The translations under genes were made by a program, and so were the position numbers. The notes below the pieces were generated by a model, which searched no databases, had not been told where the DNA came from, and was given only the letters and a program-made list of their open reading frames with translations. Shown here piece after piece: positions 2,341-63,750 of a DNA stretch of 64,000 nt. Origin of the DNA: Conyzicola lurida (GTDB lineage: Bacteria > Actinomycetota > Actinomycetes > Actinomycetales > Microbacteriaceae); NCBI RefSeq assembly GCF_014204935.1, contig NZ_JACHMJ010000001.1, forward strand, positions 806,001 to 870,000. The letters run 5' to 3'. Within the stretch, counting starts at the first letter, position 1. Each line of letters begins with the position of its first letter.

Positions 2341-3891
2341 CTACTCGCGCCGCAGCGCCTTAAGCCCCACGAGCATCGCCACCATGACCCCGGTCATCAC
2401 CGCGAACTCGGCACCCGTGCGCGGCAGCGTGATGCGCCCGGTCGACTCCGCGACCGTGCGGGCCTCGACGAAGCGCAGCAGCCCTTCCGGCCCGTTGCGG
2501 CGGCCCAGCCCCGAGTGCTTCATCCCGCCCATGGGCGCGTCGATGCTGCCGAAGCTCGCCCGGTAGCCCTCGTTGATGTTGACGCTGCCCGCGTCGAGGC
2601 GGTCGGCGACGCGGCGGGCACGAGCGACCGAGCCGCTGAACACCGACGCGTTGAGTCCGAACTCGGAGGAGTTGGCGGCGACGACCGCCTCGTCCTCGCT
2701 CTGCACGACGTGGATCGCGACCACGGGTCCGAAGGTCTCGCCGCGGGCGCAGAGCATGTCGTCCGTGACGTCGACGAGCACGGTCGGCTCGTAGAAGAAG
2801 GGTCCGAGGTCGGGGCGGGCGCGGCCACCGGTCAGCACGCGAGCGCCCTTGGCGACCGCGTCGTCCACGTGTGCGGAGACCCGTTCGAGCTGCGCGGCCG
2901 AGGTGAGAGAGCCGACGTCGGTGCTGAAGTCGAGCGCCGAGCCCTGCTTCAGCTGCGCGACGCGTTCGACGAACGACCGGGTGAACGAGTCCGCGACGGC
3001 GCGCTGCACGTAGATGCGCTCGATCGACACGCAGAGCTGCCCCATCGAGGAGTAGCACGAGTAGACCGCGTTGGCGGCGGCGGTGGCCGGCTCCACGTCG
3101 TCGAGCACGAGCAACGGGTTCTTGCCGCCGAGCTCGAGCGAGGCGCCGATGAGACGCTCGGCAGCGCGGACCCCGACGGCTGTTCCGGTTTTCGTCGAGC
3201 CCGTGAAGCAGACGTAGTCGGCGACATCCACCACCGCATTGCCGATCTCGGCCCCGTCGCCGGCGACGACTGCCCAGAGCGCGGCGGGTACACCGGCGTC
3301 GATGAACGCGCGGCGGGACGCGAGGATGCTCAGCGCGCCCTGGTTGTCGGCCTTTTGCACGACCCCGTTGCCGGCGGCCAGCGCGGGTACGACGTCCATG
3401 AGGCTGAGCGAGAGCGGGTAGTTCCACGGGGTGATGACGCCGACGAGGCCCTTGGGCTTGTAACTGACGCGCGTGCGGACGACGAGGGGGATGCCGGAGC
3501 GGCGACGGGCGGTGGCGAGCACCCCCGCGGCGGAGACCGCGTAGTAGCGCGTCACGCTCGCGCCGCTGAAGACCTCCTCGAACGCCTGACCGCGGGTCTT
3601 GCCGGTCTCGGTCTGCAGGATGTCCATGAGCTCTTCGCGGCGCTCCAGGAGCAGATCGTGGGCCTTGAGAAGCACGCGGCGGCGGTGGGCGTGGCCGGCG
3701 GCGCGCCAGGCGCGCTGTGCCGCGCGTGCGGTCGCCGCGGCATCCACGACGTCCTGGGCCGTGCCCTGCGGAAGGTCGTGCAGCACCTCGCCGGTAAACG
3801 GTGCGATGACGGGGATCGTGGCGGACGCATCGCCCGCGAGGTCGCCGACGAGGTCGGAGACGGCGGCGCGATCGGCGGTGAAGGCTGGCAT
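2341..3891 (-). CDS. gabD2: Succinate-semialdehyde dehydrogenase-type aldehyde dehydrogenase
   Basis: A 516-residue NAD(P)-dependent aldehyde dehydrogenase. Visible landmarks are TPWNYPLSLSLMDVVPALAAGN (cofactor and oxyanion site, with the conserved Asn), CFTGSTKTG (Rossmann region), LELGGKNP (general-base Glu) and SSMGQLCVSIERIYV with the catalytic Cys at about residue 287. It resembles mycobacterial GabD2 in length and motifs, so succinate semialdehyde is the likeliest substrate, although the family is promiscuous. The last 20 residues (MTGVMVAMLVGLKAL) form a hydrophobic tail after the normal end of the fold, possibly a membrane anchor. A LysR gene lies upstream on the same strand, 44 bp away. 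Confidence 0.8.
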   Translation of the reverse strand: MPAFTADRAAVSDLVGDLAGDASATIPVIAPFTGEVLHDLPQGTAQDVVDAAATARAAQRAWRAAGHAHRRRVLLKAHDLLLERREELMDILQTETGKTRGQAFEEVFSGASVTRYYAVSAAGVLATARRRSGIPLVVRTRVSYKPKGLVGVITPWNYPLSLSLMDVVPALAAGNGVVQKADNQGALSILASRRAFIDAGVPAALWAVVAGDGAEIGNAVVDVADYVCFTGSTKTGTAVGVRAAERLIGASLELGGKNPLLVLDDVEPATAAANAVYSCYSSMGQLCVSIERIYVQRAVADSFTRSFVERVAQLKQGSALDFSTDVGSLTSAAQLERVSAHVDDAVAKGARVLTGGRARPDLGPFFYEPTVLVDVTDDMLCARGETFGPVVAIHVVQSEDEAVVAANSSEFGLNASVFSGSVARARRVADRLDAGSVNINEGYRASFGSIDAPMGGMKHSGLGRRNGPEGLLRFVEARTVAESTGRITLPRTGAEFAVMTGVMVAMLVGLKALRRE

Positions 3892-3935
3892 GGCTACAGC
3901 CTATGACCGTGGCGGGCGTCGAACCCGTTTTGCGC

Positions 3936-4865
3936 TCAGGTTTGTGGCGACTCGGTCTTGTGCTCGGCGACGAAGCGCTGGGCCTCCGCGCGCAGGGCCT
4001 CTGCGACGAGCCGCACCGACGGCCGCTCGGCCCGGTCGGGACGCATCAGCGCGGAGATCTGACGGATGGCGCGGACCCCGGTGAGCGGGCGGGTGACGAG
4101 CCCGTTCTCGTGGTCGCGCGTCGTATAGCGCGGCAGGATCGCGATGCCGTGCCCGGCCGCGACCACCGACTCGACGATGCCGTTGTCGACGAAGCGCTGC
4201 AGAACGCGGGCCGGGGTGCCGTTGACGGTCTCGACCTGCCGCAGGATGCGGTCGAACGGGAATCCGACCGGCACACCGATCCACGACTCGTCGACGAGGT
4301 CCTTGGGGGAGAGCGTCTTCTTCTCCGACAGCGGGTGCCCCTCGGGCAGGGCCACGTCGAGCGGCTCGGTCATCAGGGGCAGCACGGCCAGGCCGCGCTC
4401 GCGCCACGACGGCAGGATGGCGGGCGCGTCGGCCACGACGATATCGAAGTCGGGGGTGAGGTCGGCGAAGTCGGGCAGCAGCGGATCCTGGTCGGAACAC
4501 ATCAGGGTGAGGCCCGGAACGTCCTCGATCGCGGCGAGCAGACCGGGCAGCAGCATCTGTCCGCCGGTCGGGAAGATGGTCAGCGACACGTCGCCGCTCG
4601 GTGCCTGTTTGAAGTCCTCCCACAGGGCGTCGGCGCGCTGCAGGGCGACGGCGACGTCGGTCGCGGTCTGCGCGAGCATGCGTCCCGCGCCGGTGAGCAC
4701 GACGCCCCGGCCGCGGCGCTCGGTCAACGGGATGCCCGCCTCGCGCTCGAGCACCTTCAGCTGCTGGGAAACCGCAGATGAGGTGCGATTTGTGGCGGTC
4801 GCGACGGCGGTGATGCTGCCGCGCTCGGCCAGTTCACGGAGCAGTTCGAGTCGTCGCACATCCAT
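3936..4865 (-). CDS. LysR-family transcriptional regulator
   Basis: A 309-residue LysR-type regulator. Residues 1-60 are the winged helix-turn-helix (LLRELAERGSITAVATATNR, then SSAVSQQLKVLERE), and the rest is the type-2 periplasmic-binding-like effector domain. It is transcribed towards the aldehyde dehydrogenase gene and faces a 36-residue membrane peptide across 97 bp that hold two dyads. By the usual LysR logic it controls one or both neighbours and itself. The effector cannot be inferred. The ATG at 4865 fits the family-typical opening MDVRRLELLRELA. Confidence 0.9.
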   Translation of the reverse strand: MDVRRLELLRELAERGSITAVATATNRTSSAVSQQLKVLEREAGIPLTERRGRGVVLTGAGRMLAQTATDVAVALQRADALWEDFKQAPSGDVSLTIFPTGGQMLLPGLLAAIEDVPGLTLMCSDQDPLLPDFADLTPDFDIVVADAPAILPSWRERGLAVLPLMTEPLDVALPEGHPLSEKKTLSPKDLVDESWIGVPVGFPFDRILRQVETVNGTPARVLQRFVDNGIVESVVAAGHGIAILPRYTTRDHENGLVTRPLTGVRAIRQISALMRPDRAERPSVRLVAEALRAEAQRFVAEHKTESPQT

Positions 4866-4907
4866 GTAGCAACTCTACATATATGCACAAGCATTATGTG
4901 ATTGTGC
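4864..4907. promoter_or_regulatory. Two dyads in the LysR/small-gene divergent region
   Basis: ATGTAG-N5-CTACAT (4864-4880) overlaps the LysR start codon. GCACAA-N11-TTGTGC (4885-4907) follows 4 bp later; its spacing resembles a LysR box. The stretch is AT-rich compared with the genes. An autoregulatory operator is the natural reading, but it has not been shown. Confidence 0.5.
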
Positions 4908-4962
4908 TAAACGGTTGTCGGTTGTTGAATTGATTCAGACCTAGAGAAAGAAACACCAGCCC

Positions 4963-5073: not shown

Positions 5074-5104
5074 GCGCCGCCCGGCGGGCCGAGCCCGCAC
5101 CCCG

Positions 5105-5132: not shown

Positions 5133-5181
5133 TCGTCGTTAACGGGGCGCGAGTCGTAAGAAGCGCGATGGATGCCGCGGC

Positions 5182-5732: not shown

Positions 5733-6851
5733 TCAGTTGACCGTGAAGCCCAGCTTGCGGCCGGCGAGCCCGCGTGCGCGCACCCCGAGGCGCGCGGCGA
5801 GTGCGGCGATCGCCTGTGCCGCCGGGTCGTCGGGGGTGGAGAGCACGATCGGCCGGCCGGTGTCGCCGCCCTCGCGCAGGGCGATCGACAGCGGAATCGC
5901 GGCCAGCACGTCGACCGGCTCCTCGGGAGTGGAGAGGCGGGCCGCGGCATCCGCCCCGCCCCCGCTGCCGAACAGCTCGAGGACCGAGCCGTCGGGCTGC
6001 ACGAGCCCCGACATGTTCTCGATCACGCCGATGACCTTCTGCCCGGTCTGGCGCGCGACGAGGGCGCTGCGCTCGGCGACCTCCGCCGCGGCGGGCTGCG
6101 GCGTCGTGACGACGATGATCTCGGCCTGGGGCAGCAGCTGGCCGATGGAGATCGCGATGTCCCCGGTGCCGGGCGGCAGGTCGAGCAGCAGCACGTCGAG
6201 GTCGCCGAAGTACACGTCGGTGAGGAACTGCTGGATCGTGCGGTGCAGCATGGGCCCGCGCCACGACACCGCCGTGTGCTCGTCCACGAACATGCCGATC
6301 GAGATGACCTTCACATCGTGGGCGAGCGGCGGCAGGATCATCTCGTTCACCTGGGTCGGCTTGGCGCCGGCGATACCGAGGATGCCGGGGATCGAGAACC
6401 CGAACACGTCGGCGTCGACGATCCCGACCCGGAGCCCGCGCTGCGCGAGAGCCACCCCGAGGTTGGCGGTGAGCGTCGACTTGCCGACGCCGCCCTTGCC
6501 GCTGGTGACCGCGTAGATGCGCGTGAGCGAGTCGGGGCCGAACTGGAGCGTCTTGGGTCGTCCGCCCCGCAGTTTGTCGGTCAGGGCGTCGCGTTCGGCG
6601 CGGGACATGATCCCGACGTCGACGCTCACCTCGTGAATACCCGAGACGGATGCCGCGGCCTCACGCACATCGCGTTCGATGGTGTCCGCGGCCGGGCAGC
6701 CCACGATCGTCAGCTTCAGCGCAACCGTGGCGGCACCGCCATCCACTCTGACGCCGGAAATCATGTCGAGGTCGACGATCGGCTGCCGGATCTCGGGGTC
6801 GATGACCCGGCGGAGGGCGGTGAGGACTGCGGCTTCGAGTGCCTCAGTCAA
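5733..6851 (-). CDS. mrp: Mrp/NBP35-family Fe-S carrier P-loop ATPase
   Basis: A 372-residue protein with an N-terminal MIP18/DUF59 domain (about residues 5-80, including DLDMISGV) and a ParA/Mrp P-loop ATPase with the deviant Walker A SGKGGVGKST near residues 116-124. Mrp/ApbC proteins carry Fe-S clusters to apoproteins. The CxxC cluster ligands of enterobacterial Mrp are replaced by NMSGLVQPDGSVLELFG, as I recall for mycobacterial Mrp. The TTG start at 6851 overlaps the DUF1003 stop (TTGA) and has AAGGAGA about 9 bases upstream, indicating translational coupling. Reading further upstream would run through DUF1003 in the wrong frame. Confidence 0.85.
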   Translation of the reverse strand: MTEALEAAVLTALRRVIDPEIRQPIVDLDMISGVRVDGGAATVALKLTIVGCPAADTIERDVREAAASVSGIHEVSVDVGIMSRAERDALTDKLRGGRPKTLQFGPDSLTRIYAVTSGKGGVGKSTLTANLGVALAQRGLRVGIVDADVFGFSIPGILGIAGAKPTQVNEMILPPLAHDVKVISIGMFVDEHTAVSWRGPMLHRTIQQFLTDVYFGDLDVLLLDLPPGTGDIAISIGQLLPQAEIIVVTTPQPAAAEVAERSALVARQTGQKVIGVIENMSGLVQPDGSVLELFGSGGGADAAARLSTPEEPVDVLAAIPLSIALREGGDTGRPIVLSTPDDPAAQAIAALAARLGVRARGLAGRKLGFTVN

Positions 6852-7363: not shown

Positions 7364-8669
7364 TGGTCGTCCTCCTTCCCTTTACAGGAATGCTCGAAGT
7401 GGTTGCGGGTACGGGTTCGAGATCGGGTATCTCGTCGTCGGAATCGGTACTTCGCCAGTCGTCGGGCAACAGGTAGTCGAGGACATCGTCAATGGTCACC
7501 ACCCCGACCAGCCGGTGGTTCTCGTCGATGACGGGGACGGAGACGAGGTTGTAGCTCGCGAGGATGCGGGAGACCTCGGCGGCGCTGGCGCTCGCGAGCA
7601 CGGGTTCCAGGTTCGTGTCGAGCAGCGTGCCGAGGCGCTCGTTCGGCGGGTAGCGCAGCATGCGCTGGAAGTGCACCATGCCCAGGTAGCGGCCCGTGGG
7701 TGATTCGAACGGCGGCAGCGTGACGCAGATTGCGGCACCGAGCGCGGGGGCGAGTTCGTGGCGACGGATGAGCGCGAGGCCCTCGGCGACGGTCGCGTCG
7801 GCCGAGACGATGATCGGCTCGGTGGTCATCAGGCCACCCGCGGTGTCGGGGGCGTAGGCGAGCAGGAAGCGCACGTCCTCCGCTTCCTCCGGCTCCATGA
7901 GGTCGAGCAGGGCCTCGCCGCGCTCGTTGCTGAGGTGGGCGATGAGGTCGGCCGCGTCATCCGGCTGCATCTGGTCGAGCACGTCGGCCGCACGGTCGTC
8001 GTCGAGCTGGTTCATGATGTCGACCTGCTCGCTCTCCGGCATCTCTTCCAAGACGTCGGCGAGGCGGTCGTCGCTGAGCTCTTCGGCGACCTCGTACATA
8101 CGCTGCTCGGAGAGGTCGAGCATGGCGTTGGCGAGGTCGGCGGGCAGCAGGTCGGCGTAGCTCGCGACGAGCTGTGTGGCGGACTGGGCCTCGCCCGTGG
8201 TCTTCTCGCGGATCTCTTTCCAGCGGACGAAGACCGTGGCGCCCTTGGCGAACGGTGCGCCGGTGGTCTTGGGGAGGCGGCAGAAGAGCTGCGAGATCTC
8301 CCACTCGCCGAGACCGGTCTCCTCGATCGCGACGTCTTCGATCGTGGCGTCGCCGGAGCCGTCGGCCAGCGTGACCTTGCGGCCCAGCAGCTCGGACATG
8401 ACCCGGATCTCGCCGCCGCGCTGCTCGAAGCGGCGCAGGTTGATCAGGCCGGTCGTGATGATCTGGCCCGAGCCGATGCTGGTGACGCGGCCGATGGAGA
8501 GGAAGACCTGCTTCTTTCCGGGCACCTCGACGATGAAACCGATGACGCGCGGGGGGAGATTATTGCGGTAGACGACGAGAACGTCGCGCACTCGGCCGAC
8601 TTTGTCGCCGTTGGGGTCGAAAACGGAGCACCCGGACAGGCGGGCAGCAAAAACTCTCGTGGCGCTCAC
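7350..8669 (-). CDS. PRC-barrel / MgtE N-terminal / CBS protein without membrane domain
   Basis: A 439-residue cytosolic protein. Residues 1-80 resemble a PRC barrel (SGCSVFDPNGDKVGRVRDV), and residues about 185-300 form the MgtE_N superhelix (DRLADVLEEMPESEQVDIMN, then DDDRAADVLDQM). About 305-420 are paired CBS domains ending at LVGVVTIDDVLDYLLP. MgtE Mg2+ channels carry these sensor domains in front of five membrane helices, but here no membrane domain exists. It therefore resembles the sensor half of MgtE on its own, perhaps acting on the coupled DUF1003 protein. The GTG start at 8669 has TAGGGT placed six bases upstream, a leaderless arrangement. Confidence 0.85.
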   Translation of the reverse strand: MSATRVFAARLSGCSVFDPNGDKVGRVRDVLVVYRNNLPPRVIGFIVEVPGKKQVFLSIGRVTSIGSGQIITTGLINLRRFEQRGGEIRVMSELLGRKVTLADGSGDATIEDVAIEETGLGEWEISQLFCRLPKTTGAPFAKGATVFVRWKEIREKTTGEAQSATQLVASYADLLPADLANAMLDLSEQRMYEVAEELSDDRLADVLEEMPESEQVDIMNQLDDDRAADVLDQMQPDDAADLIAHLSNERGEALLDLMEPEEAEDVRFLLAYAPDTAGGLMTTEPIIVSADATVAEGLALIRRHELAPALGAAICVTLPPFESPTGRYLGMVHFQRMLRYPPNERLGTLLDTNLEPVLASASAAEVSRILASYNLVSVPVIDENHRLVGVVTIDDVLDYLLPDDWRSTDSDDEIPDLEPVPATTSSIPVKGRRTTNGTH

Positions 8670-10386: not shown

Positions 10387-11877
10387 CTAGCGCGCCAGCC
10401 AGGCCTCGACCTCGGCGACCGTGCGCGGGATGCCGGCCGACAGGTTCTCGGCGCCCGTCGCCGTGACGACGATGTCGTCCTCGATGCGCACGCCGATGCC
10501 GCGGTATTCCTCGGGAACGGTGAGGTCGTCGGGCTGGAAGTACAGGCCGGGCTCGATCGTGAAGACCATGCCGGGCTCGAGCACGCCGTCGAGGTAGAGG
10601 TCGCGGCGGGCGGCGGCACAGTCGTGCACGTCGATGCCGAGGTGGTGGCTCGTGCCGTGCACCATGTACCGGCGGTGGTACTGGTGGTCGGGCTCGAGGG
10701 ACTCCTCGGCGGAGACGGGCAGCAAGCCCCACTCGGCCGTCTTGGCGGCGATGACCCGCATGGCCTCGGCGTGGATCTCGCGGAACCGGATTCCCGGGCG
10801 CACGATCGCGAGAGCGGCATCCGCTGCTTCGAGGACTGCCTCGTAGACGCGGCGCTGCACGTCGGTGAACGTGCCGCCGATCGGCAGCGTGCGCGTGATG
10901 TCGGCCGTGTAGTAGCTCTCGAGCTCGATACCGGCGTCGAGCAGGATCAGGTCGCCGGGCACGACGGGTCCGTCGTTGCGGGTCCAGTGCAGGATGCAGG
11001 CGTGGGGGCCGGATGCCGCGATCGTGTCGTATCCCACCGTGTTGCCGTCGGCGCGGGCACGGCGGTTGAACGTGCCCTCGACGAGTCGCTCGCCCCGCTC
11101 GTGCGCGACGATCTGGGGCAGGTCGGCGATGACGTCGTCGAATCCGCGCTTGGTCACGTCGACGGCGAGGCGCATCTGCTCGACCTCGTAGTCGTCCTTG
11201 ACCAGGCGCAGCTCGCTGAGGTCGCGGGCGAGGTCGTCGTCCCCGCCGCTCTCGCCGTCGAGGACGTCGAGCGCGTCGGTCGCGGCGGAGAGCAGGCGGC
11301 GGCCGTCGACCTGGTCGGTGATGTCGCGGTCGGCCTCGCGCACGAGCAGCGTGTCGGCGTCGACGGTGTCGAGCACGGCGGAGAAGGCCTCGAGGTTCGC
11401 GGTGGCGAGGCCGAGGTCGGCGGCGACGTGGGCGAGCGAGGGACGCGGGCCGGTCCAGAACTCTCCGACGTCGGAGTTGGCGTAGAACTCGTCGGAATCA
11501 CGGCCGGCCGCCTCGCGGAAGTACAGGGTGGCGATGTGGCCGTCGGCGGTCGGTTCGAGCACGAGCACGCTGCCGGAGACGGCGTCGGCGCCCCATCCGG
11601 TGAGGTGCGCGAACGCGGAGTGCGCGCGGAACGGGTAGTCGGTGTCGTTCGAGCGCACCTTGGCCGCGCCGGCGGGAACGATGAGGCGCTTGCCCGGGTG
11701 CAGCTCGGAGATGCGGGCGCGACGGGCCACGGCGAACGCGGACTGGGCGCGGGGTTCGGGTGCGGCATCCGCCCGCTCTGCCCAGCCGGACGAGATGAAG
11801 TCGGTGAACGCCGACGACTTGGGAGTGGTGGAACGGTTGGAGGTGGCGCGCGGGGCGTCGGAAGTCGTGTCAGCCAT
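10387..11877 (-). CDS. pepP: Xaa-Pro aminopeptidase (M24B)
   Basis: A 496-residue metallopeptidase removing N-terminal residues before proline. There is an N-terminal creatinase-like domain (aminopeptidase P N), then the pita-bread domain with the metal ligands in LILLDAGIELESYYTADITR (two Asp), HGTSHHLGIDVHD (His) and the two late Glu in FTIEPGLYF and GVRIEDDIVV. The first 35 residues are low-complexity and probably disordered. CACAAT lies six bases before the ATG, a leaderless-type promoter. It is a single gene; its neighbour at 11929 is on the same strand, 51 bp upstream. Confidence 0.9.
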   Translation of the reverse strand: MADTTSDAPRATSNRSTTPKSSAFTDFISSGWAERADAAPEPRAQSAFAVARRARISELHPGKRLIVPAGAAKVRSNDTDYPFRAHSAFAHLTGWGADAVSGSVLVLEPTADGHIATLYFREAAGRDSDEFYANSDVGEFWTGPRPSLAHVAADLGLATANLEAFSAVLDTVDADTLLVREADRDITDQVDGRRLLSAATDALDVLDGESGGDDDLARDLSELRLVKDDYEVEQMRLAVDVTKRGFDDVIADLPQIVAHERGERLVEGTFNRRARADGNTVGYDTIAASGPHACILHWTRNDGPVVPGDLILLDAGIELESYYTADITRTLPIGGTFTDVQRRVYEAVLEAADAALAIVRPGIRFREIHAEAMRVIAAKTAEWGLLPVSAEESLEPDHQYHRRYMVHGTSHHLGIDVHDCAAARRDLYLDGVLEPGMVFTIEPGLYFQPDDLTVPEEYRGIGVRIEDDIVVTATGAENLSAGIPRTVAEVEAWLAR

Positions 11878-13001: not shown

Positions 13002-13856
13002 ATGCCTACCGGACCGATCGATCTCCACACGCACAGCAGCGTGTCTGACGGCACAGAGACGCCGGCCGAGCTGATCGGCGCGGCGGTGTCCGCGGGTCTC
13101 GGGACGGTGGCGTTGACCGACCACGACTCGACCGCGGGCTGGGCGGAGGCTGCGGCCGCGGCATCCGGCACCGGCTTGATGCTCGTGCCCGGCATGGAAC
13201 TCAGCACCAACCAGGGGCAGGCGAGCGTGCACATGCTCGCGTACCTGTTCGATCCCGACGACGCGACGATCATGCGGGAGACCGCGCGCATCCGCGACGG
13301 CCGGCTGCACCGGGCCGAGCGCATCGTCGAACGCATCGCCCGCGACTACGCGATCACCTGGGACGACGTGCTCGCGCAGTCGTCCGACGGCGGCTCGCTC
13401 GGGCGCCCGCACATCGCCGACGCCCTCGTGGCCCGCGGCCACGTCGTCGACCGCAGCGCCGCGTTCGCGAGCATCCTGCACTGGCAGGGCGGCTACTACG
13501 AGAAGTACTACGCGCCGAGCCCGCTCGAGGGCGTGCGCATGATCGTCGCCGCCGGGGGAGTGCCGGTGCTGGCACACCCGGCCACCCACGATAAATACCG
13601 GCCCATGGATGACGGGACCATCGCGCAACTCGTCGACGCGGGTCTCGTCGGGCTCGAGGTCGACCACCGCGACAACACCGAGATCGGCAAGGATCGGCTG
13701 CGCGCGCTCGCCGCGCGCTTCGGGCTCGTGCTCACCGGGGCGAGCGACTACCACGGAACGGGCAAACCGAACCGGCTGGGCGAGAACACCACGAGCCCCG
13801 CGGCGCTCGAACGCATCCTCGCCGCCGGTACCGGTTCGGCGCCGTTCTACTCCTAG
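13002..13856 (+). CDS. PHP-domain metal-dependent phosphoesterase
   Basis: A 284-residue PHP-superfamily phosphoesterase of the YciV/RnaseAM or AMP-phosphatase type. Metal ligands are visible in IDLHTHSSVSDG (HxH), ALTDHDST (DH), MLVPGMELST (Glu), VLAHPATHD (His) and the final GASDYHGTG (DxH). By family it hydrolyses nucleotide 3',5'-bisphosphates or trims RNA 5' ends; I cannot choose between these. TAGAGT at 12990-12995, six bases ahead of the ATG and without a ribosome site, suggests a leaderless mRNA. It ends directly against the convergent DUF805 gene. Confidence 0.85.
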   Translation: MPTGPIDLHTHSSVSDGTETPAELIGAAVSAGLGTVALTDHDSTAGWAEAAAAASGTGLMLVPGMELSTNQGQASVHMLAYLFDPDDATIMRETARIRDGRLHRAERIVERIARDYAITWDDVLAQSSDGGSLGRPHIADALVARGHVVDRSAAFASILHWQGGYYEKYYAPSPLEGVRMIVAAGGVPVLAHPATHDKYRPMDDGTIAQLVDAGLVGLEVDHRDNTEIGKDRLRALAARFGLVLTGASDYHGTGKPNRLGENTTSPAALERILAAGTGSAPFYS

Positions 13857-14470: not shown

Positions 14471-15901
14471 CTACTCTGCGGCCGGTGTCGACGGGCGGCG
14501 GGTGCGCGTGCGGTTGCGGCTGCGCGGGGGACGGGCGGTGCCGTCCGCCGCGGGAGCCGCCGCCGGCGCGCTGCCGGAGGAGTTCGAGCGGGCGGGGCGC
14601 TGGCCGCCACCGCTACGGTCGCCGCCACCGTTGCGGTCACCACCGCTGCGCTGGCCGCCACGGCCGCCGTCGCGTGAGCCCGACGCTGCCTGCGGCTCGC
14701 GCACGCGGGGCGGGCCCGCGGTCTTGAGCCGGCCCTTCGAGCCCTCGGGGATGTCGAGGTCGGTGAAGAGGTGCGGCGAGGAGGAGTAGGTCTCCATCGG
14801 CTCGGGGATGCCCATCTCGAGCGCCTTGTTGATGAGCGACCACTTGTGCATGTCGTCCCAGTCGACGAACGTCACGGCGATACCGGTCTTGCCGGCACGG
14901 CCCGTACGGCCCGCGCGGTGCAGGTAGGTGTCGTGGTCGTCGGGGATGGTGTGGTTGATCACGTGCGTGACGTCGTTGACGTCGATACCGCGGGCCGCGA
15001 CATCCGTGGCAATCAGGATGTCCTTCTTGCCGGCCTTGAACGCTGCCATGGCGCGCTCGCGCTGGTCCTGGTTCAGGTCGCCGTGCACGGCGGCGGCGTT
15101 GAAGCCACGGTCGTTCAGCTCTTCGACCAGCTTGGCGGCGGCGCGCTTGGTGCGCGTGAAGACGACGGTCTTGCCGCGGCCCTCGGCCTGCAGGATGCGG
15201 GCGATGACCTCGTCTTTGTCGAGCGAGTGCGCGCGGTAGACGACGTGCTTGATGTTCTTCTGCGTGAGGCCCTCGTTGGGGTCGGTCGCGCGGATGTGGA
15301 TCGGCTTGTTCATAAAGCGACGGGCGAGGGCCACGATCGGGCCGGGCATCGTCGCGGAGAACAGCATCGTGTGGCGGGTCGCGGGCGTCTGCGCGAACAG
15401 CTTCTCGATGTCGGCGAGGAAGCCGAGGTCGAGCATCTTGTCGGCCTCGTCGAGGACCATGACCTTGATGTCCTTGAGGCTCAGCATGCGCTGGCTCGCG
15501 AGGTCGAGCAGGCGGCCGGGGGTACCGACGATCACCTGGGCTCCGGCCTTGATCTGCTCGACCTGGCCCTCGTAGGCCTTGCCGCCGTAGATGGCGGCGA
15601 CGGTGGTCGAGCGGTTGGATGCCGCGAGCGTGAGGTCTTCGGCAACCTGCACGCACAGCTCGCGGGTCGGGACCACGACGAGGGCCTGCACGCCGGGAGC
15701 CGGGTCGATGCCGAGTTCCTGGAGGAGGGGGAGACCGAAGCCGAGGGTCTTACCGGTACCCGTCTTGGCTTGGCCGATGATGTCCTGGCCGGCGAGACCC
15801 ATGGGGATGGTCTGCTCCTGGATGGGGAAGGGCTCGACGATGCCCTTGGTTGCGAGTGCGTCGACCATGTCCTGGTCGATCTTGAGATCAGCGAATGTCA
15901 A
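14471..15901 (-). CDS. DEAD-box ATP-dependent RNA helicase
   Basis: A 476-residue RhlE/DeaD-like helicase. Motifs in order: the Q motif PFPIQEQTIP, Walker A AKTGTGKTLG, VVPTRELC (Ia), TPGRLLDL (Ib), VLDEADKMLD (II), FSATMPG (III), ATDVAARGIDV (V) and HRAGRTGRAG (VI). The last 75 residues are a basic, glycine-rich, disordered tail (GGDRNGGGDRSGGG and arginine-rich end) that would bind RNA non-specifically. It is head to head with the ferritin-like gene, as in mycobacteria (Rv3211/Rv3210c from memory), suggesting a role in RNA or ribosome turnover, perhaps in the cold. Confidence 0.95.
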   Translation of the reverse strand: MTFADLKIDQDMVDALATKGIVEPFPIQEQTIPMGLAGQDIIGQAKTGTGKTLGFGLPLLQELGIDPAPGVQALVVVPTRELCVQVAEDLTLAASNRSTTVAAIYGGKAYEGQVEQIKAGAQVIVGTPGRLLDLASQRMLSLKDIKVMVLDEADKMLDLGFLADIEKLFAQTPATRHTMLFSATMPGPIVALARRFMNKPIHIRATDPNEGLTQKNIKHVVYRAHSLDKDEVIARILQAEGRGKTVVFTRTKRAAAKLVEELNDRGFNAAAVHGDLNQDQRERAMAAFKAGKKDILIATDVAARGIDVNDVTHVINHTIPDDHDTYLHRAGRTGRAGKTGIAVTFVDWDDMHKWSLINKALEMGIPEPMETYSSSPHLFTDLDIPEGSKGRLKTAGPPRVREPQAASGSRDGGRGGQRSGGDRNGGGDRSGGGQRPARSNSSGSAPAAAPAADGTARPPRSRNRTRTRRPSTPAAE

Positions 15902-17347: not shown

Positions 17348-17478
17348 GAGCCAAGATTACGACACCCGCCGGTCGCGTGGCCGACACGTTCGCCCGCGGC
17401 AGAACCGGGCGGCACCGACGGCGCGAACCGCGGCGGTGCTCGACGGCCGTGTCGGTGCCTGCCGGTACCGTTGAGGCC

Positions 17479-42419: not shown

Positions 42420-43484
42420 TCACGTGCGGTCCGGGGGTGCCGCAGGCTTCGGCCGCGCCATCCGGGGGACCACCACCTCGTTGACGATGAGAACGACGGA
42501 TGCCACGACCGGAATGGCCACGAGGGCTCCGAGTAATCCCAGCAGGCTGCCGCCCACCATCGCGCCGATGAGCACGAGCGAGGCGGGGATCGCCATCGCG
42601 CGGCTCATGATGCGCGGGCAGAGCACGTACGCCTCCAGCTGCATGTACGCGATGAGCGCGACGGCGGCGACGAGCGCGGCGGTGGGGGAGGTGAACAGGC
42701 TGATCGCCACGACGATGACCGTGCTGACTACGCTGCCGACGAGCGGGATCATCGTGATGATCAGGGCGAGCGCCGCGAGGATGCCGGCGAAGGGCACGCC
42801 GAGGATCAGCAGCAGCACGAGCGTGAACAACGCGTTGAGCACGCCCATCAGCGCCATGCCGCCGAGGTAGCGTCCGATCGACCGGGCGATGCGCTCGGCG
42901 AGCCCGACGAACGTGGGGCGGGAGTCGATCGGCACGAGCGAGTACACGGCGCGCGTGATCGCGGGAAGCGAGCCGAGGAAGAACAGCGTCAGCACGACGA
43001 TGAAGATGCCGAGCACGGTGCCGTTGAGCAGGCCGATGCCGGCCTGCAGCACGCCGCCGCCCACCGAGAGCCAGGTGTCGGGGTGCCCGACGAAGTCGAT
43101 CACCGCCGCCTCGATCGCGGTGAGCACGCCCTCGGTCGACTCGTCGAGCGCGATGAACCACGGCTGGCTGCTCAGTTCGCGCAGGTACGCGGGTGCGCCG
43201 TTCACGAGGTCGACCGCCTGCGCGGAGACGACGGGCACGATCGCCCAGCCGAGCAACGCGAGCACGGCCGCGAAGACGACCACCACGATCGTCACTCCGC
43301 CGGCGCGGGGGACGCCCCGCGCTTCGAGCCGGGCGACGAGGGGGTCGAGTCCGAGGCTGATGAACCCCGCGGCGGCGATGCAGGCGAGGATGCCGCCGAG
43401 ACTCGCGGCCGCCAGCGCGAGGGCGATCGCGAGGAGGGCTCCGACCGTCGCGGAGAACCCGATTGTGAATGCCCGACCAGACAT
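42420..43484 (-). CDS. AI-2E family transporter
   Basis: A 354-residue polytopic membrane protein of the AI-2E/PerM family. Blocks include the N-terminal paired helices (FTIGFSATVGALLAIALAL), a central amphipathic stretch (YLRELSSQPWFIALDEST), LTLFFLGSLPAITRAVYSLV, and the hallmark GVPFAGILAALALIITMIPL with a following YMQLEAYVLCPRIMSRAM. Substrate is not inferable: members export varied small molecules or ions. ATG 43484 is preferred because AGAGG sits nine bases upstream; an ATG three codons earlier has no spacing. Confidence 0.85.
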   Translation of the reverse strand: MSGRAFTIGFSATVGALLAIALALAAASLGGILACIAAAGFISLGLDPLVARLEARGVPRAGGVTIVVVVFAAVLALLGWAIVPVVSAQAVDLVNGAPAYLRELSSQPWFIALDESTEGVLTAIEAAVIDFVGHPDTWLSVGGGVLQAGIGLLNGTVLGIFIVVLTLFFLGSLPAITRAVYSLVPIDSRPTFVGLAERIARSIGRYLGGMALMGVLNALFTLVLLLILGVPFAGILAALALIITMIPLVGSVVSTVIVVAISLFTSPTAALVAAVALIAYMQLEAYVLCPRIMSRAMAIPASLVLIGAMVGGSLLGLLGALVAIPVVASVVLIVNEVVVPRMARPKPAAPPDRT

Positions 43485-43634
43485 CGTCGCCATCCTCTGC
43501 AGTGAGGGCAGTGAAACGATCCCAGAGTAGACCCGGGCGGCCGCCCGCCGACAGGACGGAATCGTCCGGTCGGCCGCTCGACAGGACCAATCGGGCGGCG
43601 TGCGCCGCGGCATCCTGTTGGCCGACGAAGCGAG

Positions 43635-50071: not shown

Positions 50072-51192
50072 AGGCCGTACATTTCGGCGCCGGAAACATC
50101 GGCCGCGGCTTCGTCGGGCTGATCCTGCACAAGGCCGGCTACGAGGTCGTCTTCGCCGACGTCAACGCCGAGCTCATCGACGCCCTCGCGTCGACGCCGA
50201 GCTACGTCGTGACCGAGGTCGGCGACGGCGGCACCGAGTGGACCGTCGACAACTACCGCGCCCTCAACAGCGCCACCCACGAGGACGACGTCGTCGCCGA
50301 GATCGCGTCGGCCGACATCGTCACCACTGCCGTCGGACCGAACGTCCTACGCTTCGTCGCCCCGCTCATCGCGAAGGCGATCGAACAGCGCTCCGCCGAC
50401 CTCGCGCCGCTCGTCGTAATGGCGTGCGAGAACGCGATCAACGCCACCGACCTGCTGCGCATCGAGGTCGAGAAGACCCTCCCGGGCGCGGGCGCCGTCT
50501 TCGCCAACACGGCGGTCGACCGCATCGTCCCCGGCCAGGACCCCGACGCCGGACTCAACGTCACCGTCGAGTCCTTCTTCGAGTGGGCCATCGAGAGCAC
50601 CCCGTTCGGTGACTCGACCCCCGTGATCCCCGACGCCCACTTCGTCGAGGACCTCGCCCCCTACATCGAGCGCAAGCTCTTCACCGTCAACACGGGACAC
50701 GCCACCGCCGCGTACCACGGCTTCGCGGCCGGAGTCGCGTCGATGTCGGACGCCTTCTCCACGCCGGCGATCGCCGACGAGGTGCGGGCAGTGCTCGCCG
50801 AGACCAAGGCCCTCCTCGTGGCGAAGCACGGCTTCGACCCCGAGGTGCAGCAGGCGTACATCGACAAGAACATGGTGCGTTTCGCGAACCCGCAGCTGAG
50901 CGACACCGTCGACCGTGTCGGTCGCCAGCCGCTGCGCAAACTGAGCCGCAACGAGCGCTTCGTCGGCCCGGCGGCGGAGCTCGCGGAACGCGGCATCCCG
51001 TCTGATGCCCTCGTGCGCACCATGGGCGTCGCCCTGAAGTTCGACGTGCCGGAGGACCCGCAGAGCGTCGAGCTGCAGCAGCTGCTCGCGACCGCGACCC
51101 CCGAGGAGTTCGTGGCGCAGGTCACCGGCCTCGACGAGTCGCACCCGCTCTACGCCGCCGTCGTCTCCGTCGTCCGTGCCCACACGAGCTGA
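50068..51192 (+). CDS. mtlD: Mannitol-1-phosphate 5-dehydrogenase
   Basis: A 374-residue NAD-dependent polyol dehydrogenase converting mannitol-1-phosphate to fructose-6-phosphate. The N-terminus is the Rossmann fold [16 protein letters not shown]. The C-terminal domain carries the catalytic signature [16 protein letters not shown] (family Lys, Asn and His). GTG start, coupled to mtlF through a 4-bp overlap. It completes the mannitol operon. Confidence 0.96.
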
Positions 51193-51232: not shown

Positions 51233-52033
51233 ATGAGCCTTCCCGAGTCCGCGATCGCCGTCGCCCAATTCGCGCCGGTCGCGGATTCGGCGGCGAACCT
51301 CGCCAGCATCCGCCTCCTCGCCGAACGCGCGGCGGGCAGGGGAGCGACGCTCGTCGTGTTCCCCGAATACTCGTCGTATTTCACGCCCACGCTCGATCAG
51401 GGCTTTGTGGATGCCGCGGAAGAGGTTGACGGCCCGTTCGTCACCGGGCTCGCCGCCCTCGCCGCCGAGCTGGGTGTACACCTCGTGGCGGGTCTCGTCG
51501 AGAAGACCGGGGAGGCGTCGCGGTTCTCGAACACCCTGGTCGTCCTGGACCCGGCCGGTCAGCTCATCGCGGTGTACCGCAAGATCCACCTCTACGACGC
51601 GTTCGGCGGCAAGGAGTCGGACTGGGTCGTCCCGGGGCCCCTCGACGCACCGCAGACCTTCGGATGGGGCGGCTTCACCGTCGGGTTGCAGACCTGCTAC
51701 GACATCCGCTTCCCCGAAGTCACCCGCCGTCTCGTCGACGCGGGCGCCGACCTCGTGCTCGTTCCGGCCGAGTGGGTCCGCGGCCCGCTCAAAGAGCACC
51801 ACTGGCGCACCCTGCTGACCGCCCGCGCCATCGAGAATACGGTGTACCTCGCGGCCGCCGACCAGGCGCCGCCGATCGGATCCGGCAACAGCATGGTGCT
51901 CGACCCGATGGGCATCGAACTCGCCACAGTCGGGGAATCCACAGATATAGCGGTCGCATGGGTCTCGCCGCAACGAATCGCCGAAACCCGCGTAATAAAC
52001 CCCGCATTAGTTCTCCGACGCCTCGGTAAATGA
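51233..52033 (+). CDS. Carbon-nitrogen hydrolase (nitrilase superfamily)
   Basis: A 266-residue amidase-type enzyme with the complete Glu-Lys-Cys triad: Glu45 in VVFPEYSSYF, Lys117 in VYRKIHLYDAF and Cys155 in GLQTCYDIRFPE. The DAFGGKESD and WVRGPLKEHHWRTL segments resemble the omega-amidase/Nit-like branch, where deaminated glutathione or omega-amides are substrates; the exact one is unknown. TAGGCT lies at 51221-51226, six bases ahead of the ATG, so the mRNA is probably leaderless and separate from the mtl operon. The receiver-deacetylase fusion follows 59 bp downstream. Confidence 0.9.
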   Translation: MSLPESAIAVAQFAPVADSAANLASIRLLAERAAGRGATLVVFPEYSSYFTPTLDQGFVDAAEEVDGPFVTGLAALAAELGVHLVAGLVEKTGEASRFSNTLVVLDPAGQLIAVYRKIHLYDAFGGKESDWVVPGPLDAPQTFGWGGFTVGLQTCYDIRFPEVTRRLVDAGADLVLVPAEWVRGPLKEHHWRTLLTARAIENTVYLAAADQAPPIGSGNSMVLDPMGIELATVGESTDIAVAWVSPQRIAETRVINPALVLRRLGK

Positions 52034-58312: not shown

Positions 58313-59731
58313 ATGACCGACACCCCCGAGATTCCCGCAACACCCGTCAACGCAACACCCCCCGTACCCCCGCAGCCGCCCGTACCCCGCGCGCTTGCCG
58401 AGGCTCCTGCTGCACCCAGCGCTACGACGCTCGCGTACACCCAGCCTCTGAACGACGCACCTCCCGCGCCGCCGACGTCGCCGCCCGCCGCGCCCAAGAA
58501 CTCCGGCGAATCGTTCCGCCGCACCCGCCCCGTCGTGCTCGTGGCGGCCATCGCCGTCGCAGCCCTCGTCGGCGGCGTCTCCGGCGCGGGCGTCACGCTC
58601 CTCGCCTCGAACAACAACTCCGGCTCGACGGTCACGGCGATCACCACGCCCGCCAACGTCACGGTCAACAACCCCGAGAACGCGACCACGGTCACCGGTG
58701 TGGCAGCGAAGGCTTCCGCGTCCGTCGTGACGATCTCCGCGACATCCAGCGACTCTGGCGGCACCGGTTCCGGCGTCGTCTTGAGCAAGGACGGCTACGT
58801 CCTGACCAACACGCACGTCGTGACCCTCGACGGTGCGACCGGCGACGCGACCATCTCCGTGCAGACCAACGACGGACGCCTCTTCACCGCGACCGTCGTC
58901 GGCACCGACCCGATCTCCGACCTCGCGGTCATCAAGCTCGACGGCGCGACCGACCTCCAGCCGGCTACGTTCGCCGACTCGAGCGAGCTCAACGTCGGCG
59001 ACGGCGCGATCGCTATAGGCGCCCCGCTCGGCCTCTCCGGCACTGTCACCGACGGCATCGTGAGCGCGATCAACCGCAGCATCACGATTGCGTCCTCCGC
59101 GGCCCCGACCGAGACCCAGTCGGAAGACGACTCGACCACCCCCGGCGAATCCAGCCCGTTCGACTTCTACATTCCGGACGAGGAGAACCCGACCGCGCCG
59201 ACCACGAGCTCGTCGACGATCTCCCTCGCCGTTATCCAGACGGATGCCGCGATCAACCCGGGTAACTCAGGTGGTGCGCTGCTCAACACCGACGGCGAGA
59301 TCATCGGCATCAACGTCGCGATCGCCAGCGCGGGCGGCACCAGCGCCGCGTCGCAGTCGGGCAGCATCGGCGTCGGCTTCGCCATCCCGTCGAACCTGGC
59401 CGAGCGCGTCTCCAAGGAGATCATCGCCAACGGTTCCGCCACCCACGGCCTCCTCGGCGCCTCGATCGTCGACGTGACCGAGGACGACACCCAGACCGAC
59501 AGCGCGACCGTCGGAGCGAGCATCCGTGAAATCTCGGCCGGTGGAGCCGCCGAAGCAGCCGGTCTGAAGGTCGGCGACATCGTCACCGGCATCGACGGCC
59601 TGCCCATCACCGGCAAGACGGACCTCACCGCCCAGGTGCGTGCCCTCGCCGGCGGCGCCAAGACGACCATCACCTACGTCCGCGACGGCAAGTCCGCGAA
59701 CACCGATGTCACTCTGGGCACCCTGAGCTAG
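58313..59731 (+). CDS. HtrA/DegP-type membrane-anchored serine protease with PDZ domain
   Basis: A 472-residue protease. A long proline/alanine-rich cytosolic N-terminus (1-65) precedes one membrane helix (VVLVAAIAVAALVGGVSGAG). The trypsin-like domain has His168 in LTNTHVV, Asp203 in ISDLAVIKLD and Ser319 in NPGNSGGALLN. An acidic insertion (ETQSEDDSTTPGESS) lies between. A C-terminal PDZ domain (GGAAEAAGLKVGDIVTGIDG) completes it. It degrades misfolded extracytoplasmic proteins. It stands alone with its own terminator. Confidence 0.93.
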   Translation: MTDTPEIPATPVNATPPVPPQPPVPRALAEAPAAPSATTLAYTQPLNDAPPAPPTSPPAAPKNSGESFRRTRPVVLVAAIAVAALVGGVSGAGVTLLASNNNSGSTVTAITTPANVTVNNPENATTVTGVAAKASASVVTISATSSDSGGTGSGVVLSKDGYVLTNTHVVTLDGATGDATISVQTNDGRLFTATVVGTDPISDLAVIKLDGATDLQPATFADSSELNVGDGAIAIGAPLGLSGTVTDGIVSAINRSITIASSAAPTETQSEDDSTTPGESSPFDFYIPDEENPTAPTTSSSTISLAVIQTDAAINPGNSGGALLNTDGEIIGINVAIASAGGTSAASQSGSIGVGFAIPSNLAERVSKEIIANGSATHGLLGASIVDVTEDDTQTDSATVGASIREISAGGAAEAAGLKVGDIVTGIDGLPITGKTDLTAQVRALAGGAKTTITYVRDGKSANTDVTLGTLS

Positions 59732-59747
59732 GCACGGCAGATCGCCA

Positions 59748-60973: not shown

Positions 60974-62491
60974 GCCGACCGCCCCGCGCTTCAGCAGCCG
61001 GGCCACGACGCGCGCGGCCGAGCCGCCGTCGTCGCGCGGGTTGAACCGTTCGCGCCACGCGGCGTACTTCTCCGCATAGAGGCCGGATGACGCGTCCCGG
61101 TCCCGCACGAGACCGACGAGTTCCGCGGCGTCCTGCACCACCGGTCCCGGAGCGGCCGCGTCGAGGTCGAAGTAGAACCCGCGCAGCTGCTCGCGGTAGT
61201 GGTCGAGGTCGGGGGCGAAGAAGAACATCGGCTTGCCGGTGACGCTGAAGTCGAACATGACCGACGAGTAGTCGGTGATGAGCGCGTCGGCGACGAGGAA
61301 CAGCTCGGTGACGTCGGGGTAGCCGGTGACGTCGAGGATGTTGCTCGCGCGCACGTCGCGCCCGGGGAGCAGCGTGCGGGAGTGGCCGCGGATCAGGGTG
61401 ACGTAGCCCGGTCCGAGTGCGTCGGTGAACGCCGCGACATCCAAGTGGTCGATGTGTTCGGGCCGGTCGTCCCGCCAGGTCGGCGCGTACAGCAGCACGG
61501 TGACGTTACGGGGGAGCCCGAGGCGCTCGCGCACGGCGTCGGGGTCGGGGGAGACCAGGGCATCGTCGCGCGGATAGCCCTCCTGCCAGATCGGGCCGAG
61601 GAACGCGTAGGCGGAGCGGAAGACCGCCGTGCTGTGCGCGTTCTGCGACAGCATGATGCTCCAGCGGCCGCGTTCGCGGATGGTGGCGAGCGCGGTGCGC
61701 AGGCCGACGCCCGGGCGGCCGAGCGCGATCTTCTTGAGCGGGGTGCCGTGCCAGGTCTGCAGCACGGTCTGGAACCGGCGCCTGGCGAACCGGTTGCGCA
61801 GCCAGTCGTTGACGACGAGCAGACGCGCCGACCCCCGGATGCGCCACCACTCGGCGCTGCCCTCGATCAGCGCGACGGACCCCTCGGGGACCTCGACCGA
61901 GGCGTCGACGACGCTCCAGTAGCGGGCGATGTCGGGGCGCGTCGCCGCGAACTCGCGGTCGAGCGCGAGCGGGTTGCAGGTCGCGCTCTGGCCGTAGAAG
62001 CTCTCGAAGAAGACGGCGTCGAGCGGGGCGCGCTTGGCCGAGCGGTAGTCGTTCTCGAGGGCGGCCTGGTTCTCCCGGCCGCGTTCCGCGTCGGTGAGCG
62101 GCGGCACGAGCTCGAGGCGGAGGACGCCGTCCACGACGGCCGCGGTGGCGCGGAGCCAGCCGGGCACGAGGATGTCGTCAGAGGTCTGCTCCGCGGCGTG
62201 GAGGGGCGCGGCCGACCCGTCGTCGGCGAGCTGCACCGCGGTGTAGCTGCCCGAGGGCGCGGGCAGCAGGGCTCCGCGCCAGCGCGACACGAGCAGCGGG
62301 AACTCGGCCCGCCAACCGTCCCCGTCGACGATGACGGTACCCGGCAGGTCCTGGCGCGGACCGCGCAGCACGAGTGCGCCCGGGCGGCCGGTGCCGGACA
62401 GCGTGAGCGTCGGGCGTTCGCCGGGCACGAAGCGGGCGGACTCGACCGCCACGTCACGCGCAACCGGGCCGGCGGGAGGTGTCGCGCTCAT
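60971..62491 (-). CDS. CDP-glycerol glycerophosphotransferase (TagF-like), longer
   Basis: A 506-residue enzyme of the TagB/TagF family. About 150 N-terminal residues form a beta-rich accessory domain, then the GT-B-like catalytic part: LQTWHGTPLKKIALGRPG (His), VTVLLYAPTWRDD, LIRGHSRTLLPG (His), LITDYSSVMFDFSVTGKP and MFFFAPDLDHYREQLRGF. It polymerises polyol-phosphate chains of teichoic-acid type. The ATG at 62491 overlaps the stop of the upstream TagF-like gene by 4 bp (ATGA), so the two are coupled. Reading upstream in frame would run antisense through that gene. Confidence 0.9.
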   Translation of the reverse strand: MSATPPAGPVARDVAVESARFVPGERPTLTLSGTGRPGALVLRGPRQDLPGTVIVDGDGWRAEFPLLVSRWRGALLPAPSGSYTAVQLADDGSAAPLHAAEQTSDDILVPGWLRATAAVVDGVLRLELVPPLTDAERGRENQAALENDYRSAKRAPLDAVFFESFYGQSATCNPLALDREFAATRPDIARYWSVVDASVEVPEGSVALIEGSAEWWRIRGSARLLVVNDWLRNRFARRRFQTVLQTWHGTPLKKIALGRPGVGLRTALATIRERGRWSIMLSQNAHSTAVFRSAYAFLGPIWQEGYPRDDALVSPDPDAVRERLGLPRNVTVLLYAPTWRDDRPEHIDHLDVAAFTDALGPGYVTLIRGHSRTLLPGRDVRASNILDVTGYPDVTELFLVADALITDYSSVMFDFSVTGKPMFFFAPDLDHYREQLRGFYFDLDAAAPGPVVQDAAELVGLVRDRDASSGLYAEKYAAWRERFNPRDDGGSAARVVARLLKRGAVG

Positions 62492-63750
62492 TCGTGCTCT
62501 TTCAGCCGGGTGATGATCTGGGAATACACTCTGACAGTATTCTCGCCGTCCCGGAACGCGTGGTGCGCCGTGGCGAGCGCGTCGGAGTGGCGCTCGAGCC
62601 GAGCCCGGGCATCCGGCTCGTCGACGGTCGCGACCAGATCGAGCACCGCGCCCCAGTCGCGCACCTCGGCGCCGCCGCTGAACGTGTCGTAGGGCACGTA
62701 GAGCCCGCGGCTCGCCTCGTACGTCTCGACGTCGGGGCTGAGGAACAGGATCGGACGGCCGGTGAGCGCGAAGTCGAACGCGATGGACGAGTAGTCGGTG
62801 ATCAGCACGTCGACGGCGGGAAGCACGGGGGTGACGTCGGTGCGCTGCTGCGCGCCGAGCAGGCGGATGCGCGGGCTGAGCGCGAAACCGTCCGCATAGT
62901 CGCCGACCCCGTGCGGGTGCGGCCGCACGACGAGCAGGGAGTCGGTGCGCTCGAGCACGCCGACGATGCGCCGCCACTCGTCGGCCGTCGGGATGCCGGG
63001 ATCGATTTCGCCGTCGCGCCAGGTCGGGGCATAGAGCAGCACCCGCTGCCCGGTCGGCTCGAGCCCGAGGGAACCGAACAGCAGGGCGCGCGCTGTCGCG
63101 GTGCGTTCGGACTCGGTCCCGGCCACCATCACGTCGTCGCGCGGGTCGCCGGTGACGACCACGCGGTCGGCGGGCAGGGCGAAGGCGCTGCGCAGACGTG
63201 AGGCCGAGACGGCGGATGCCGCGGGCATCAGGTCGATCGCCCGGGCGCCGCCGCGGTACATGAACCGCATCAAGCGGCGCACGAGCGCGGAGTCCGGGAG
63301 CAACCGCGTACGCACCGTCGCGGGGGAGTCGAGGTTGATCAGCTTCAACGGGATGCCGTGCCAGAGCTGCACGACGAACGCGCCACGGATTCCGTACCGG
63401 TTCGCGTCGCCGAACCCGTGCGTCACCACCACCACGCGGGCGCGCAGGGTCGCCAGAAGTCCCTGCCGCGACGACTTCAGCACAGCGGGGATGCCGAGCG
63501 CCTCGGCGGCGTCGAGATCGCGCTCGTCGCGCGCGAGCCAGAGCAGGCTGAGCGACGGATCGGACGCGCGAACGACACGGTAGAGCGCGAGAGCCCCCTC
63601 GCCGATTCCCGGGCCGGAGCCGAACACCCAGAGGTCGCGACGGCGGGGAATGACACCGCTCGCCAGCGCGCCGAGAGCGTAGCCGGGGAGGGCGAGGATC
63701 TTCTTCGCGTTCCCCGCGGCGAAGGTGAATCCCGGCGCGGTCTGAGGCAC
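62488..63750 (-). CDS. CDP-glycerol glycerophosphotransferase (TagF-like), shorter
   Basis: A 420-residue second member of the TagF family: VVQLWHGIPLKLINLDSP (His), RVLLYAPTWRDGEID, VVRPHPHGVGDY, VLITDYSSIAFDFALTGRP and ILFLSPDVETYEASRGLY. It lacks the N-terminal beta domain of its partner. The pair may act in series, with one priming and one elongating enzyme. GTG start at 63750; TACTCT lies five bases upstream on the minus strand, so the mRNA is leaderless. It diverges from the partial gene at 63848. Confidence 0.9.
   Translation of the reverse strand: MPQTAPGFTFAAGNAKKILALPGYALGALASGVIPRRRDLWVFGSGPGIGEGALALYRVVRASDPSLSLLWLARDERDLDAAEALGIPAVLKSSRQGLLATLRARVVVVTHGFGDANRYGIRGAFVVQLWHGIPLKLINLDSPATVRTRLLPDSALVRRLMRFMYRGGARAIDLMPAASAVSASRLRSAFALPADRVVVTGDPRDDVMVAGTESERTATARALLFGSLGLEPTGQRVLLYAPTWRDGEIDPGIPTADEWRRIVGVLERTDSLLVVRPHPHGVGDYADGFALSPRIRLLGAQQRTDVTPVLPAVDVLITDYSSIAFDFALTGRPILFLSPDVETYEASRGLYVPYDTFSGGAEVRDWGAVLDLVATVDEPDARARLERHSDALATAHHAFRDGENTVRVYSQIITRLKEHE

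Follow-up and report, generated by a model that had tools for sequence, protein, structure and literature searches.

The genome of Conyzicola lurida, an actinobacterium of the family Microbacteriaceae, is strewn with a short word, GGATGCCGCGG in its 11-base form, which we describe from a 64,000-base stretch (the window; bases 806001-870000 of the single-contig genome G000, 3,643,329 bases), from larger parts of the same chromosome and from related genomes. It is a family-specific identity word under strong per-site drive or per-site selection, and it exists in dialects. The word has been written in most of the places where it fits without altering the encoded protein, as fits a molecularly driven identity word. 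Among known systems it is most like the uptake-sequence dialects, the DNA uptake sequence (DUS) and uptake signal sequence (USS), is less like the recombination signal Chi, and is not like the FtsK-orienting polar sequences (KOPS).

The window holds 13 exact copies of the 11-mer (6 forward, 7 reverse) and 43 of its 8-mer core GGATGCCG (22 forward, 21 reverse), where an order-3 Markov model of the window expects 0.3 and 7.7. The first-pass annotation, made by eye, had placed all 13 copies exactly; its tally of 42 cores was right for the 22 on the forward strand but gave 20 on the reverse, the missed copy lying at 356, outside the range it had covered. Its two intergenic copies, at 5170 and 43605, agree with independent gene calls. 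The over-representation is confirmed and is larger than first noted: GGATGCCGCGG occurs 597 times in the 3.64 Mb genome (298 forward, 299 reverse), compared with 9 occurrences (3 and 6) of the reversed word used as control.

Occupancy of silent sites and arrangement on the chromosome

The finer properties of the word were determined in 864 kb of its own genome, comprising the window and two 400-kb parts (G000:C1:1-400000 and 1600001-2000000), about a quarter of the total. Judged by excess over Markov expectation, the word extends to (C)GGATGNCGCGG(C)(C). Within GGATGNCGCG, position 6 accepts any base (A 7.3, C 8.9, G 5.9 and T 5.0 times fourth-order expectation). Most other single changes bring the count to about 1 times expectation, positions 8 and 10 being partly tolerant, and single-mismatch neighbours are far less frequent than the perfect word. 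The word is non-palindromic, and only overlapping inverted pairs form a palindrome, of 16 bp.

Codon usage does not account for these counts. A shuffle of synonymous codons, which the first-pass annotation had named beforehand as the refuting test, does not reproduce them: across 811 called genes there are 112 coding 11-mers against 8.3 expected (z 46) and 401 coding GGATGNCGCG against 51 (z 60), and pure codon bias is thereby ruled out. Genes were called by a simple method based on hexamers, so their ends carry some error. That the word uses uncommon codons, as the annotation had remarked, is well illustrated by aspartate, which in the 800 kb outside the window is encoded by GAT in 9% of cases overall, in 180/201 where it stands between G and GNC GCG, and in 11/146 after a base other than G. 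Stretches one silent change from GGATGNCGCG have mostly been converted, whichever way the word points and in each coding frame that offers enough cases. At each silent position, in each frame, that offers at least 15 chances, the completing base is used in 75-98% of cases, the lowest value (75%) belonging to position 10, where A is tolerated. GAT is taken at 194/220 silent chances (88%, where codon usage predicts 9%), NCA at 103/125 (82%, predicted 5%) and xxG at 186/194 (50% expected). Transversions are among the alternatives displaced, and GGAYGNCGCG taken as a sum is itself raised in the main frame, with 220 seen against 82 expected; C-to-T mutation bias alone is therefore insufficient, and pure CpG deamination is ruled out.

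The preference is clearest at rare chances, that is, silent chances at which the completing codon has a usage below 25%, each genome being scored on its own version of the word. These were taken at 302/347 in C. lurida, 148/168 in G142, 77/95 in G060, 13/17 in G286, 18/21 in G260 and 47/72 in the congener G037, and at or near expectation for four shuffled control words. Chi of Escherichia coli took 8/34 rare chances and 166/253 of all silent chances (0.66 against 0.42 expected) in 250 kb of strain MG1655, and the highly iterated palindrome HIP1 took 23/25 and 65/70, respectively, in 50 kb of the Synechocystis plasmid pSYSM. HIP1 is thus as saturated as the word, so saturation separates the word from Chi and not from HIP1.

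Strand and gene direction have little bearing on the 11-mer. Its strand counts are near-equal in both large regions (33/32 and 32/28), as in the window, despite opposite gene-strand majorities (257/390 and 125/367 genes on the plus strand), and its orientation relative to genes is neutral (54 same, 58 opposite), as is that of GGATGNCGCG (211 and 191). The bare 8-mer core is skewed relative to genes (164 same, 277 opposite) and is divided 129/97 between the strands in one region. Spacing is near random, with a coefficient of variation of 1.05 for GGATGNCGCG and 1.25 for the 11-mer. The density of the 11-mer is 2.2 times higher between genes than within them, and among gap types GGATGNCGCGG reaches 1.42 per kb in convergent gaps (17 sites), 0.61 in tandem gaps (27) and 0.15 in divergent gaps (3). 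Neighbours less than 100 bp apart are mostly inverted (15/18 in C. lurida, 11/12 in G142 and 5/5 in G060, partly counted by hand); some of these are the exact 16-bp overlap palindrome, and excluding overlapping pairs 18/22 are inverted. Within 10 bases downstream of stop codons lie 15 sites, that at 5170 of the window among them, and 14 of the 15 have the one orientation STOP-CCGCGNCATCC. For the versions of other genomes, the intergenic to coding ratio is 4.1 in G142, 3.2 in G037, 1.7 in G260 and 1.6 in G286; in G105 it is 18.8, from 16 sites of which 11 are intergenic, and this word may belong to a longer repeat.

Dialects within the Microbacteriaceae

Of 299 Microbacteriaceae genomes, 97 have 100 or more exact copies of the 11-mer, by hand tally of the count table, with totals ranging from 0 to 1,376 (G142) in the family and from 18 to 492 within the single genus g85. 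Counts are close to control in small genomes (about 1-2 Mb) and in several large genera. Outside the family, none of 139 genomes of the same order reaches 100 copies, the highest count being 56 (control 17).

Several genera poor in the 11-mer have related words of their own, mostly centred on GGA-T/G-G. The samples cover 80-400 kb from each of ten relatives and 1-6 kb from each of G164, G004 and G050; the dialect samples of several genera amount to 46-110 kb, some pooled over species, none from a small-genome member. Pooled samples share homologous genes, an effect limited in one tally by counting distinct contexts only; the named genera are represented by 80 loci around adnB, and the dialect words were read from small tables. 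On this basis the dialect is GGATGC(C/G/T)C(G/T) in G286, GGATGCCC in Microcella, AGGAGGCGC in G260 and Frigoribacterium, C(T/G)GGAGGCGCG in G105, CGGATGCGC in Herbiconiux, GGATGCGCG in the pair VKM Ac-2854/2855, (A/G)CGGATGCC in Cryobacterium with a similar form in Mycetocola, and about CGGATG(C/T)CNC in Agromyces and G142. GGAGGCGC is one dialect version standing beside that of C. lurida, and in G037, which has the reference word 30 times, the core looks looser. No dialect was detectable in 80 kb each of G097, G045 and G014. Separately, 80 kb of G034 (loci L071-L074) hold 45 copies of the palindrome CGGATCCG, which is about 6 times as frequent in coding sequence as a codon shuffle predicts and has an intergenic to coding ratio of 0.64; it is perhaps a HIP1-like word of another genus and a separate phenomenon.

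Candidate readers and the origin of the word

We favour the reading, at a probability of about 40%, that this family-specific identity word has spread by site-by-site drive and that the drive is biased DNA uptake. The known receptor of DUS is a type IV minor pilin. Under biased uptake, natural transformation would favour DNA of kin that bears the perfect word, and its recombination into the chromosome would turn near-matches into matches, as for DUS and USS. Biased uptake seems the likeliest drive because DUS shares with the word its dialects around a core, its permissive intergenic sites and its inverted pairs, and because transformation is reported in the family. Published work describes for DUS family dialects, a conserved CTG core and permissive intergenic and inverted-pair sites (PMC3630211), and another paper reports natural transformation for two Microbacteriaceae members (PMC11577799). 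Like the word, DUS of the Neisseriaceae (PMC3630211) and USS of the Pasteurellaceae are non-palindromic, limited to a family and some 10-12 bases long. They too form genus dialects about a common core and stand in hundreds or more copies on both strands, with a preference for intergenic sites and inverted pairs. The word differs from them in its host, a Gram-positive, high-GC actinobacterial family, in that some of its richest genomes lack a strong PilB match, and in showing no core-genome preference in one comparison. Somewhat more tentatively, the Microbacteriaceae may have an uptake-sequence system of their own, with a receptor unlike the Neisseria PilB-type pilus and a drifting specificity that would give rise to genus dialects and sexual isolation. 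To our knowledge it would be the first such system in Actinobacteria, and literature searches for the word itself, or for Chi, uptake or transformation in this group, showed no report of it among the papers listed, which were 20 of 824 for papers containing the 8-mer and took in few subscription papers.

Several observations weigh against biased uptake. No receptor for the word was found among the families examined (pilus, ComEC, AdnB, RecC and three methylase families). The uptake channel ComEC is present in 70/71 genomes (four of them outside the family), a point in favour, but genomes without the word have it too. A T2SSE match of PilB strength (E <= 1e-130) was obtained in 25/48 genomes and in 14/23 of the motif-rich ones; it was absent from the other 9, the richest genome G142 among them, with 32 first-look candidates scored per large genome, so that a PilB may have been missed. 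T2SSE matches were read as PilB from their strength and from pilin-like neighbours in the C. lurida genome. On this scoring a PilB-type pilus is set aside as the necessary reader, other pilus types still being candidates. Small-genome members show no enrichment of the 11-mer, though transformation is reported in such lineages, and G060 has inverted pairs without intergenic excess (ratio 0.79). DUS favours the core genome (PMC3630211); the word has a density of 0.538 per kb in 109 genes unaligned to the congener G037 and 0.551 in 219 shared genes, with saturation of 0.89 and 0.91, which speaks mildly against a drive confined to the core genome, the unaligned genes being possibly core yet diverged or displaced. 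Conservation of sites, measured in 254 kb aligned to G037, tells both ways: GGATGNCGCG is kept at 50/125 coding sites, compared with 28% of 2,426 sites for 143 shuffled control words, which counts for uptake; the exact 11-mer is kept at 13/39, little above control words, which counts against it. Finally, saturation fails to single out uptake, as the rare chances taken by HIP1 make plain.

An apparent type IV pilus operon lies elsewhere on the C. lurida chromosome (G000:C1:121448-134466, locus L007), with PilB/PilT/PilC-like genes, GFTLIEL-type pilin starts and, by protein starts, PilD/PilM/PilN-like genes; its GC content is mostly about 0.60, and it is nearly free of the word.

The main rival, possible but doubtful, is a HIP1-like drive, in which sequence- or methylation-guided repair would make and keep the word without an uptake step, genus versions following changes of the guiding methylase or nuclease. 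It holds this place because pilus matches are missing from some of the richest genomes, genes not shared with the congener are equally saturated, and HIP1 itself is equally saturated. Some cyanobacteria have alternate HIPs in place of HIP1, with matching methyltransferases (PMC4390886). The word resembles HIP1 and the alternate HIPs in its high iteration, in its per-site saturation as measured here on pSYSM, in its lineage-specific replacement by other words and in its low frequency in some lineages. It differs in that it is no palindrome, and the three methylase families compared (D12, C5 and PF01555, with types I, III and IIG left out) do not follow it. D12 methylases occur in 5/28 genomes and C5 methylases, not found in C. 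lurida, in 14/28, which rules out either as a necessary reader. PF01555 methylases are nearly family-wide (27/28), as this rival would welcome, and 16 sequences align as one conserved orphan adenine-type methylase. Its putative target-recognition stretch is, however, strongly conserved whatever the dialect, in genomes without detectable motif as well, and the enzyme recurs at 74-75% identity in 4/38 genomes outside the family (two families of the order). The 11-mer counts of those four genomes are 38, 38, 36 and 8, compared with 26, 19, 8 and 15 for the reversed-word control, an excess that is at most modest. Neither the presence nor the dialect of the word is tracked by ComEC, AdnB, RecC, PilB-strength T2SSE, D12, C5 or PF01555. 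We regard as rather unlikely a reading in which a nucleoid-exclusion or chromosome-organising protein binds the word and ordinary selection maintains its very many sites. Near-random spacing, occurrence on both strands and avoidance of divergent gaps would suit such a protein, yet ordinary selection for the number of sites needs no conversion of most eligible near-matches, no protein has been identified, and copy totals vary enormously within the family and even within genus g85.

Of the roles that the first-pass annotation had left open, uptake remains, beside a HIP1-like drive, protein binding stays a candidate, simple methylation or deamination bias is rejected, and Chi has become less likely. 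A Chi role is unlikely, and we consider it quite improbable that AdnAB, the helicase-nuclease pair whose genes lie in the window, has the word as its recombination hotspot. AdnB matches (E <= 1e-60, some partial) were found in 53/54 genomes and RecC in 0/41 family genomes tested, with 2/3 outside the family positive, so that AdnAB is likely the resection enzyme and RecBCD-Chi is ruled out. The word is also, like E. coli Chi (GCTGGTGG), non-palindromic, G-rich and over-represented; Chi has some silent-site preference, and the G-rich strand of the word ends in GCGG, which is reminiscent of known Chi words. But the word is longer than Chi, lacks strand skew, is taken even at rare codons and is rich between genes, where Chi is poor (0.046 against 0.281 per kb in 250 kb), and genomes without the word have AdnB just as those with it do. 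A bias of composition, codons or CpG deamination is a negligible explanation: it could appeal to the displacement of GAC by GAT where GAC gives the near-match GGACGNCGCG (26 vs 194), but is countered by the codon shuffle, the Markov excess and the displaced transversions, and by the Microbacterium phage Min1, of similar GC, which has 5 cores against 4.9 expected. Min1 was the sole phage studied among 543 matched phage records (98 named Microbacterium) and serves as a composition control only; phages of this family's hosts were not among the matches listed for a RuvC query. We give virtually no credence to an FtsK-orienting polar signal, as the annotation had rightly argued from the window: KOPS and the FtsK recognition sequence (FRS) are similarly short and over-represented, the one point in favour, but the word is without polarity, and the near-equal strand counts of two further chromosome regions lead us to reject it.

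Sites in the window, neighbouring repeats and wider meaning

Table 1. Copies of the word and related genes, in window positions except where a contig is given.
Feature	Position	Strand	Remark
GGATGCCGCGG copy	3735..3745	-	exact match
GGATGCCGCGG copy	5170..5180	+	exact match; intergenic, directly after stop codon of minus-strand gene 5182-5697
GGATGCCGCGG copy	5942..5952	-	exact match
GGATGCCGCGG copy	6648..6658	+	exact match
GGATGCCGCGG copy	13156..13166	-	exact match
GGATGCCGCGG copy	19773..19783	+	exact match; within adnA-like gene
GGATGCCGCGG copy	26670..26680	-	exact match
GGATGCCGCGG copy	36577..36587	-	exact match
GGATGCCGCGG copy	36737..36747	+	exact match
GGATGCCGCGG copy	37069..37079	-	exact match
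GGATGCCGCGG copy	43605..43615	-	exact match; intergenic
GGATGCCGCGG copy	51409..51419	+	exact match
GGATGCCGCGG copy	63214..63224	+	exact match
GGATGCCGCG site	354..363	-	
GGATGACGCG site	2157..2166	+	intergenic
GGATGGCGCG site	4064..4073	+	
GGATGACGCG site	7953..7962	-	
GGATGCCGCG site	11011..11020	+	
GGATGTCGCG site	14996..15005	-	
GGATGCCGCG site	15617..15626	+	
GGATGTCGCG site	18327..18336	+	
GGATGCCGCG site	19449..19458	-	
GGATGGCGCG site	21600..21609	+	
GGATGCCGCG site	28140..28149	-	
GGATGTCGCG site	28256..28265	+	
GGATGTCGCG site	31132..31141	+	
GGATGGCGCG site	32242..32251	-	
GGATGGCGCG site	33535..33544	-	
GGATGTCGCG site	39177..39186	-	
GGATGGCGCG site	42454..42463	-	
GGATGCCGCG site	44859..44868	-	
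GGATGACGCG site	44900..44909	+	inverted partner 41 bp away
GGATGCCGCG site	47374..47383	-	
GGATGCCGCG site	50989..50998	-	
GGATGTCGCG site	58738..58747	-	
GGATGCCGCG site	59242..59251	+	
GGATGACGCG site	61085..61094	+	
GGATGTCGCG site	61433..61442	-	
adnA-like gene	17449-20658	+	UvrD and PDDEXK_1 domains
adnB-like gene	20655-23879	+	UvrD and PDDEXK_1 domains; adjoins adnA-like gene
orphan adenine-type DNA methylase gene	G000:C1:3486583-3487449 (locus L236:2583-3449)	-	best PDB matches RsrI, CcrM and similar

Two further interspersed repeats were noted in the 864 kb of the C. lurida genome. One, around TCGGAAATTCAGGAAGTC, has a core 11-mer present in 33 copies, some of the repeat copies adjoining the word; the other, around GAGCCTGTCGAA, has 34 copies. 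The top word lists of G142 and G060 contain neither.

Iterated identity words are known from two proteobacterial families, as uptake words, and from cyanobacteria, as HIP1, the cause of which is unsettled. With its genus dialects, its measurable preference at single sites and the many species sequenced, the Microbacteriaceae word would add a third, independent case. Through it the origin of such words in biased uptake, in repair or in selection could be tested, and exchange of DNA between particular strains predicted.

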